Source: Hydrogenobaculum sp. Y04AAS1 | Lineage (GTDB): Bacteria; Aquificota; Aquificia; Aquificales; Aquificaceae | Reading direction: 5' to 3' | Assembly (NCBI RefSeq): GCF_000020785.1 | Contig: NC_011126.1 | Location: 868,001 to 932,000 of the forward strand | Length of the DNA stretch: 64,000 nucleotides | The notes under the pieces: model-generated | Databases searched by the model: none | What the model saw: the letters and a program-made list of their open reading frames with translations, nothing else | What the model was told of the DNA's origin: nothing | In this document: positions 24,112-48,495 of the stretch, one piece after another | Layout of the letters: every line of letters begins with the position of its first letter | Numbering within the stretch: the first letter of the stretch is position 1 | Program-made: the position numbers and the translations under genes

Positions 24112-24807
24112 TTATTTCTTCTTGGCTTTTTCTGTAGCTTTCTTAGCTGCAGCTTTAGCTTTTGTGTGGGCTTTTTTGGCGGTTTTTGCCATGTGTTTGG
24201 CGTGAGATTTTACTTCTACTGGTTTGCCGTGGAGTATACAGAGTGGGTTACGTTTTCTGTCTTTGTATTTGAGTGTCCAGTAGTTGAACTCACGTCTTGC
24301 TTTTGCTCTTTCGGCTGGTGTGAGATGTACTAAGTATCTTAGCCTCATACCTACTCTCAATATCCATGGGTCTCTACCAATGGCTCTTCTGTTTAGGTCA
24401 TAGATTGATGGCCAGTATACTTGGGTACCGTAAATCCTTTGAGCTATTGTAGAAAGAGTATCGCATGGTTTTACTCTGTAATAACCGTACATAGCGTGCG
24501 GTTTTACTATTGGCTTACTTACTGGAGGTGGAGGTGGTGGTGGCGTTTCTGGTGGAGGGGGTGGTGGTGGTGGAGGTGGTGGTGGAGGTGGTGGTGGAGG
24601 TGGAGGTGGAGCTGGTTTGTGCTCTTCTTTACCAAGAGCCTTGATCTTGTTGATGTCAATACAAGTTATCCAATAAGCGCCATTGTTACAGGTGTCTGGC
24701 TCTGGGTTTGCGTACACACCTGCACCTTCATTTCCGTGCGCGCTTGCTGCATAAAGCATGAACCCCAGACCTATGGCTGGCGCCAGCATTGCAAGAAACC
24801 TATTCAT
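24112..24807 (-). CDS. LysM-domain envelope protein with polyproline linker and Lys/Ala-rich tail
   Basis: The 231-aa protein has an N-terminal membrane/signal segment (FLAMLAPAIGLGFMLYAASAHG). A polyproline linker follows (about residues 67-95, over 25 prolines broken by one ET), then a LysM domain (YRVKPCDTLSTIAQRIYG), then a basic alanine/lysine tail (KAKAAAKKATEKAKKK) resembling histone-H1 tails. LysM binds peptidoglycan; the linker would span the periplasm and the tail could bind acidic polymers. The proline tract is encoded by imperfect GGT/GGA repeats on the plus strand. It is flanked by a strong promoter and a terminator, so it is monocistronic and probably abundant. Confidence 0.8.
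   Translation of the reverse strand: MNRFLAMLAPAIGLGFMLYAASAHGNEGAGVYANPEPDTCNNGAYWITCIDINKIKALGKEEHKPAPPPPPPPPPPPPPPPPPPPPETPPPPPPPVSKPIVKPHAMYGYYRVKPCDTLSTIAQRIYGTQVYWPSIYDLNRRAIGRDPWILRVGMRLRYLVHLTPAERAKARREFNYWTLKYKDRKRNPLCILHGKPVEVKSHAKHMAKTAKKAHTKAKAAAKKATEKAKKK
24529..24612. repeat. Trinucleotide-rich tract coding the polyproline linker
   Basis: About 80 bp of near-continuous GGT/GGA/GGG triplets (plus strand) encode the proline linker. Such tracts can change length by slippage in units of 3 nt without breaking the frame. Confidence 0.7.
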
Positions 24808-47152: not shown

Positions 47153-47161
47153 TGTTATAAT
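47153..47161 (+). promoter_or_regulatory. Extended -10 promoter of the repeat leader and glycosyltransferase
   Basis: TGT-TATAAT on the plus strand. Transcription would start near 47168, about 5 nt before the first tandem repeat, so all three repeats would be in the 5' leader. Confidence 0.55.
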
Positions 47162-47172
47162 AAGAGAGTGAA

Positions 47173-47404
47173 AGAGTGATGAAATCGCATTTCGGGGCTA
47201 AAGAACAGACAAAGCCACTCAAGGAGATGTGAGAAATGCTAAAGCACACTAGAGCGATGAAATCGCATTTCGGGACTAAAGAACAAGCAATGAAACTTAG
47301 GAGAAGAAAGAAATGCTAAAGCACACTAGAGCGCTATCAGCGCATTTAGGAGCTAAAGAACAGACAAAGCCACTAAGGAGCTAAGAGAAATGCTAAAGCA
47401 CACT
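47173..47404 (+). repeat. Three tandem 77-78 bp units forming the glycosyltransferase leader
   Basis: Units are 47173-47250, 47251-47327 and 47328-47404. Each has a hairpin near its start, a GCTAAAGAACA-like block, a purine-rich ribosome-site-like stretch (AAGGAG, TAGGAG, AAGGAG) and ends AAATGCTAAAGCACACT. The third end is the real gene start (ATG 47390). Hairpin arms are GTGAT/ATCGC, GCGAT/ATCGC and GCGCT/AGCGC, so pairing is kept while sequence changes. Confidence 0.85.
47179..47384 (+). other. Three short upstream ORFs within the repeats
   Basis: Frames run 47179-47232 (17 aa, MKSHFGAKEQ...), 47236-47319 (27 aa, MLKHTRAMKSHFGTKEQ...) and 47313-47384 (23 aa, MLKHTRALSAHLGAKEQ...). The last two begin with the same MLKHT as the glycosyltransferase, each with a purine-rich site 7-10 nt before the ATG. 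Whether they are translated is unknown. Confidence 0.4.
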
Positions 47405-48495
47405 GTTTGTCTTTATGTACATAATTTAGGAAGAGCTTCGCAAAATGGTACGGCTATAACCATCATGTCTATAGATATAGCAAATGCACTCAAAAAATTG
47501 GGCCATGAGGTTTTCTTTGTATTAAATAAACCTATAGTAGAAGAAGATATAGATTTTAAAGTCTATCACCTTTACAAAGAAAACACGTTTTTAAACGGAG
47601 AATTGCCTTACGCCATCAGACTATCAAATATATTAAAAGCTGAAAAACCAGATATAGTGATGTCTTTTATGAAAGCCCAGACTATTGTACTATCTCTTTC
47701 AAAGCTTATAAACCCATCTAAAAATACTATTTATTTAGGAAGTATACACAACAACGACAATTATTATGCTTACGGGAAAAATGTATATATACCTTATAGA
47801 TATTTGATAAAGTTTTTATACGAAAGCTTAGATTACATCGTAGTACCATCAGAAGCTATTAAAGAAGATCTTCAAAAGACATTTTTTATAAAAGAAGATA
47901 AGTTTAAGACAAGGCCAAACTGTATAGACTTTGAAAAACTTGATAAACTATCGGAAGAACATTGCGATATAAAAGGAGATTTTATAAATATAGGTAGGTT
48001 GATAGACCAAAAAGGCCAAATCTATCTTATTGAGGCTTTTAAAAAAGTAAAAGATAGATTTAAAGATGCAAAGCTTGTCATAATAGGAGAAGGTAGTTTG
48101 AGAGATAAAATAGAAAACAAAATCAAAGAACTTGGGCTTGAAAACGATGTCATACTCACTGGATATCAAACAAACCCTTACAAATATCTTAAAAATTCAA
48201 AAATCTTTGTATTAAGTTCCATTTTTGAAGGTTTTGGTAATGTGATAATAGAGGCTATGCACTTTGGACTACCCGTTATATCTTACGAGTGCCCGGTGGA
48301 CCAAAAGAGATAATAAAAAATGAGTTCGGAGTTTTAGTGCCACCAAAAGACGTAGACGCTTTAGCAAATGCTATGATAGAAATGCTTGAGAATAAAGAAA
48401 AACAAAAACATTACTCTATTATGTCTAAGAAAAGAGTTTTGGATTACGATTGTAAAAGCTATGCAAAAACGTTGATATCTTTGAAAATGCTCTAA
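47390..48495 (+). pseudogene. GT4-type glycosyltransferase with a single-base frameshift
   Basis: The first frame (47390-48313) encodes a GT4 glycosyltransferase: an N-terminal acceptor domain, then FINIGRLIDQKGQIYLIEAF, LVIIGEGSLRDKIE and the E-x7-E nucleotide-sugar motif (EGFGNVIIEAMHFG). At PVISYEC the frame reads PVDQKR-stop. The conserved continuation PGGPKEIIKNEFGVLVP lies in the -1 frame from 48292 to 48495. Adding one C to CCC at 48292-48294 restores a roughly 368-aa enzyme. It would act on cell-surface sugars if repaired. The cause is a recent mutation, an assembly error or frameshifting. Confidence 0.85.

Follow-up and report, generated by a model that had tools for sequence, protein, structure and literature searches.

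A dispersed 78-bp in-frame element at the start of a glycosyltransferase gene in Hydrogenobaculum

The glycosyltransferase locus and its tandem array

We analyzed a 64,000-nucleotide stretch of the genome of Hydrogenobaculum sp. Y04AAS1 (contig NC_011126.1, positions 868,001 to 932,000; hereafter the window), in which a tandem array of three units leads into a family-4 glycosyltransferase gene (47390-48313, on the forward strand like every feature of this locus). The genome is a single contig of 1,559,514 bp, referred to here as G000, and its genus-mates are referred to as G001 to G004, with G003 being a sister species and the second complete genome. Tandem Repeats Finder places the array at 47173-47404 with a period of 77, 3.0 copies, and a score of 315, by far the top score in the window, in agreement with the three 77-78 bp units described in a sequence-only reading of this DNA. 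We find that the unit is a dispersed, genus-restricted, hairpin-bearing insertion element of ~78 bp, which we call the Hydrogenobaculum in-frame element, and we consider it very probable that tandem insertion of this element split the glycosyltransferase gene from its native start, with the last unit taking over initiation.

The array consists of copy 1 (47173-47250, 78 nt), copy 2 (47251-47327, 77 nt), which is the ortholog of the last G003 unit at 92% identity, and copy 3 (47328-47404, 77 nt), which has no counterpart in G003 and holds the Shine-Dalgarno sequence and start codon for the glycosyltransferase gene. Each unit carries a 5-bp hairpin, with the previously claimed stems GTGAT/ATCGC, GCGAT/ATCGC, and GCGCT/AGCGC, followed by a purine-rich, ribosome-site-like stretch and ATG CTA AAG CAC ACT. 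The AUGs at 47236, 47313, and 47390 all precede CUAAAGCACACU, the last being the glycosyltransferase start itself, and two upstream open reading frames (uORFs) thus open with MLKHT exactly as the gene does. The first uORF, MLKHTRAMKSHFGTKEQAMKLRRRKKC (47236-47319), ends in a TAA that overlaps the next AUG (ATGCTAA, 47313-47319), an overlap also found at the G003 glycosyltransferase start, and the second, MLKHTRALSAHLGAKEQTKPLRS (47313-47384), has its stop codon 5 nt ahead of the glycosyltransferase AUG. The Shine-Dalgarno sequence AAGGAG (47375-47380) lies inside copy 3, 9 nt before AUG 47390, with a duplex energy of -7.1 kcal/mol. Upstream of unit 1 is the extended -10 motif TGTTATAAT (47153-47161), the promoter that the sequence-only reading had proposed, and from it we predict a transcription start at ~47167-47168, which would place the whole array in the mRNA leader. 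The array had no match in Rfam up to E=5. We reject an assembly artefact, since the locus recurs in an independent complete genome, there with another number of copies.

Comparison with the genus-mates, which the sequence-only reading had proposed, found three units in G000, two in G003 with the same MLKHT fusion, and an empty site in G004. The empty site reads TGATATAAT-ACAAGA-ATG AAA ATA TGT CTT, with the uninterrupted junction ATGAAA/ATATGTCTT, while the window locus reads TGTTATAAT-AAGAGA-GTG AAA (array) GTT TGT CTT. Together, these sequences indicate that the array entered the glycosyltransferase gene between its second and third codons. The original codons 1-2 survive as a remnant, GTG AAA (47168-47173), followed by GAG TGA, such that the old start hits a stop after three codons, and the first five codons of the present gene (MLKHT) are element-derived. 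The sequence TGnTATAAT and its 6-nt spacing are conserved in G003 and at the G004 empty site. With 6 nt between the end of the extended -10 motif and the original start, the ancestral mRNA probably had no leader. Near its 3' end (48285-48295), the window gene has a 1-nt deletion close to 48290 (TGCCCGG, compared to TGCCCCGG in G003 and G004), a frameshift or sequencing error that shortens it to 307 codons versus about 368 in G003.

Dispersal, in-frame insertion, and start donation

To follow the unit beyond the window, we used a covariance model, R1, trained on 28 units, which found 66 copies in the window genome and 48 in G003, and none in three other genus members or in 56 further family members. 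The exact core pattern was not found in the genomes of 85k other species or in viral contigs, and the absence from viral contigs disfavors a virus-borne origin. One model match, at 781127, was rejected as chance because it is the conserved UvrB gene. Dispersal, empty sites, and in-frame insertion are all established by these genome comparisons.

The covariation that the sequence-only reading had noticed in the array, and had proposed to check elsewhere, persists in other copies. Across the two genomes, the 5-bp stem was fully paired in 60 of 92 distinct copies, compared to a mean of 27 and a maximum of 37 in 2000 arm shuffles. Since the unit is scattered and also lies in proteins and a transfer-messenger RNA (tmRNA), this covariation belongs to the element family rather than to this leader. 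Whole units folded only slightly better than shuffles on average (mean z -0.58 over the 92 copies), with a clear palindrome in the tmRNA copy and a few others, and a long-stem model, GCATTTC/GAAATGC, mis-registered as built, supported nothing more than the small hairpin. Among the strongest palindromes are insertions unique to G000, for example those in the tmRNA (z -4.4) and in ribonucleotide reductase (z -2.5), and a scenario where young copies are palindromic and older copies decay would be consistent with this. Between G000 and G003, shared copies were 73-77% identical versus 85-95% for their flanks in three cases, while a fourth, at 97%, was not faster-diverging.

Many copies lie in frame within long open reading frames. 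Array length was divisible by 3 in 21 of 22 intragenic arrays compared to 14 of 31 others (Fisher p=1e-4), with five of the 22 being orthologous pairs and the effective n being ~17. The ribonucleotide reductase of G000 contains an in-frame insert of 26 residues, RALLTHFRVNEHAQPLNSSENGSKHT, which maps between conserved blocks of the solved Pseudomonas-type chain 5im3_A; the enzymes of G003, G004, and G002 lack precisely these residues. The G003 enzyme carries a double insert close to its N-terminus, for which G000 has no counterpart. Further in-frame hosts include a topoisomerase, DinG-like helicases (two), an EAL-domain protein, and a CDP-alcohol phosphatidyltransferase, and, judged from reading the sequence, an IS transposase, a TnpB-like protein, and an isoleucyl-tRNA synthetase. 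The element is read in three different frames, one of them on the opposite strand, and the putative uORF peptide of the window is the element's own coding frame, which at other loci reads as a protein insert. The copy in the TnpB-like gene (L085, G000:1438967-1439044) lies close to the C-terminal cysteine region.

A further copy accounts for a published anomaly. Lechner et al. (2014; PMC4227106) reported a 78-nt insertion in the tmRNA of Hydrogenobaculum sp. Y04AAS1, and we found that it is exactly one element unit. In the sections of that paper that we consulted, the insertion stands as an isolated oddity, with its origin not traced and its dispersed nature unmentioned, whereas here it is one element copy among many. 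The tmRNAs of G002, G003, and G004 lack the unit, as does that of G001, since its match spans 349 nt compared to 426 in G000.

Besides the glycosyltransferase, two genes have taken their start from the element. In the element-free relatives G001 and G004, a SpoU/TrmH-type methyltransferase starts with MQNY (MQNYV/MQNYI) after AAGGAG, while with the element it reads MLKHTMQSYV in G000 and MLKHTTQNYV in G003. In G003, the native ATG has decayed to ACG, leaving the element ATG as the sole remaining good start. In a rhodanese-like gene, so named from its sequence, the native MNEQVLLDV of G002 is MLKHTKTLLDV in G003 and MHTKILLDV in G000. Shine-Dalgarno duplexes were stronger in start-donating arrays (median -7.3 kcal/mol, 13 units) than in other units (0.4, 55 units; p=2.7e-4, uncorrected for the relatedness of tandem units and with an assumed standard anti-Shine-Dalgarno sequence). 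Start donation is thus demonstrated, at the level of sequence, at three genes in two species, and these findings suggest that ribosomes initiate at the donated starts.

Other repeats accompany the element. A related second type with a long stem, GCATTTTACATCGTA...TACGATGTAAGAAATGC, occurs at L017 (G000:200000-207000) and L112 (G003:1148700-1153800), shares the ends TAGAGCG and CACACT, and forms mosaic arrays with the first type. An 18-bp micro-repeat, ACAAGTMTRCCACGNNNN, is present in all five genus members, with 120 sites in G000 (control pattern, 1). It is often tandem with an 18-bp period, nests in 78-bp elements to give 96-nt units, and, in the EAL protein and in ribonucleotide reductase, occurs as exact 18-bp insertions that keep the frame; examples outside the window are L018 (about 1750-1775), L015 (1715-1790), and L016 (ribonucleotide reductase). 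Outside G000, its tandem pairs were found in Hydrogenobaculum or Aquificaceae contigs only. Elsewhere in the window, a TGGAGG/TGGTGG repeat array lies at 24523-24616.

Origin of the array and competing explanations

We propose that the element entered a probably leaderless glycosyltransferase gene after its second codon and severed it from its native start codon. As the 3' end of the element, (AAGGAG)...AAATG CTA AAG CAC ACT, lies in frame with the gene, the last unit could have become its Shine-Dalgarno sequence and start, adding the N-terminus MLKHT. Copy number would then have drifted to three in G000 and two in G003, and the uORF units may be coupled by termination-reinitiation through the ATGCTAA overlaps. 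More generally, the element would be a selfish, translatable hairpin in the manner of Rickettsia palindromic elements (RPEs), tolerated because its length and frames leave genes open, and now and then recruited to serve as a start. Several observations weigh against this account. No mobilizing enzyme was identified, and insertion is read from presence and absence alone; start donation was seen at three genes only, and the units of one array are non-independent; the G003 copy at the rhodanese gene lacks a good Shine-Dalgarno sequence; and the glycosyltransferase gene of the window carries a frameshift, which may mean that its locus is decaying in G000, although in G003 the gene is intact.

The element may be a mobile translation-initiation cassette that donates a Shine-Dalgarno sequence and ATG (three genes, two species), may equally sit read-through in frame in proteins or tolerated in tmRNA, and moves without clear target duplication; we hold this reading tentatively. 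The junctions are compatible with blunt insertion of AGAG...CACACT, and a TA duplication suits some sites only. A classical miniature inverted-repeat transposable element (MITE), mobilized by a transposase that duplicates a TA target site and with incidental coding capacity, would be compatible with start donation, and most left ends (TAGAG), many right ends (CACACTA), and the ribonucleotide reductase site, which fits a 76-bp core plus a TA duplication, point in that direction. However, the tmRNA, EAL, and second ribonucleotide reductase junctions lack the duplication (TT or TTG on the right flank), and AGAGCG and CACACT are imperfect as inverted ends, such that we regard a MITE as rather unlikely. 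None of the loci read showed an autonomous partner whose ends match, where no search was aimed at one.

We also considered a dedicated riboregulatory leader, in which the tandem hairpins and uORFs would respond to some signal and regulate the glycosyltransferase through attenuation or coupled reinitiation. The promoter upstream of the array, uORF stops that overlap or nearly touch the following start, the family-wide hairpin covariation, and the retention of the array and MLKHT fusion in two species are all in line with such a leader. On the other hand, the unit is also found within proteins, in a tmRNA, and at numerous unrelated intergenic sites, and G004 has the glycosyltransferase gene without the leader element. 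Within the window, units taken whole folded no better than shuffles (z -1.2, 0.2, and -0.5), the whole leader was weakly structured (z -1.8), and the G003 ortholog of unit 1 has a stem, GCGAT/AGCGC, with an A-G mismatch. The few differences between orthologous uORFs of G000 and G003 were mostly non-synonymous, leaving purifying selection on the uORF peptide unsupported. Among the structures of the window units, support is limited to the small hairpin. We consider a dedicated leader improbable and reject a locus-specific riboswitch or attenuator as the main account, given that the unit is dispersed and also within proteins. The tandem-repeat mRNA leader of the sequence-only reading thus probably exists, as the footprint of a dispersed element rather than a locus-specific regulator. 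Least probable is a neutral tandem repeat of the mycobacterial interspersed repetitive unit (MIRU) type, a local duplication of a small coupled ORF with no mobility, which would match the ~77-bp unit, head-to-tail copies, ATGCTAA overlap, and species-variable copy number but is disfavored by single copies at dozens of unrelated sites and clean empty sites in relatives, which require dispersal, and by many copies without any ATG or overlap.

Related elements and significance

The sequence-only reading knew of no described element like this one, which holds for this lineage but not beyond it, as RPEs are of the same kind. RPEs are reported from both tmRNA and RNase P RNA (PMC2229807), their in-frame frequency has been described (PMC10969869), and palindromic elements are also known from Wolbachia (PMC4224334). 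Like these, the Hydrogenobaculum element is a small dispersed hairpin repeat that lies in frame in conserved protein genes, between genes, and in tmRNA. Unlike RPEs, it resides in a free-living thermophilic member of the Aquificota rather than in Rickettsiales, has a unit of 78 bp rather than 105-150 bp, forms head-to-tail arrays, donates start codons, and in most copies conserves only a small 5-bp hairpin. Since the core pattern is absent outside Hydrogenobaculum, there is no sign of homology to RPEs, as compared by exact pattern rather than by profile.

MIRUs are tandem units of ~77 bp whose small ORFs overlap neighboring starts, and they are described as intergenic; to our knowledge, they do not occur as in-frame protein or tmRNA inserts. 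The Hydrogenobaculum arrays share the tandem small ORFs with overlapping stop and start, but 22 of them are intragenic. The Correia/NEMIS, ERIC, and RUP MITEs are likewise dispersed, non-autonomous repeats of small size, some of which form in-frame fusions with ORFs (PMC2229807), although they have terminal inverted repeats and TA duplications that are not clear for the Hydrogenobaculum element. PARCEL repeats (PMC2996958) are similar in being ~75-nt tandem coding units with dyad symmetry, but they form membrane-protein repeat domains, whereas single Hydrogenobaculum units interrupt unrelated housekeeping genes.

In-frame hairpin elements in housekeeping proteins have so far been treated as a Rickettsiales peculiarity. 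An independent family in a free-living thermophile, tmRNA included, would suggest that selfish DNA escaping purging through translatability is a general class, and provides a free-living host for studying the insertion mechanism. Altogether, our findings explain a published tmRNA anomaly and suggest a concrete route by which genes may gain new start sites and N-termini.
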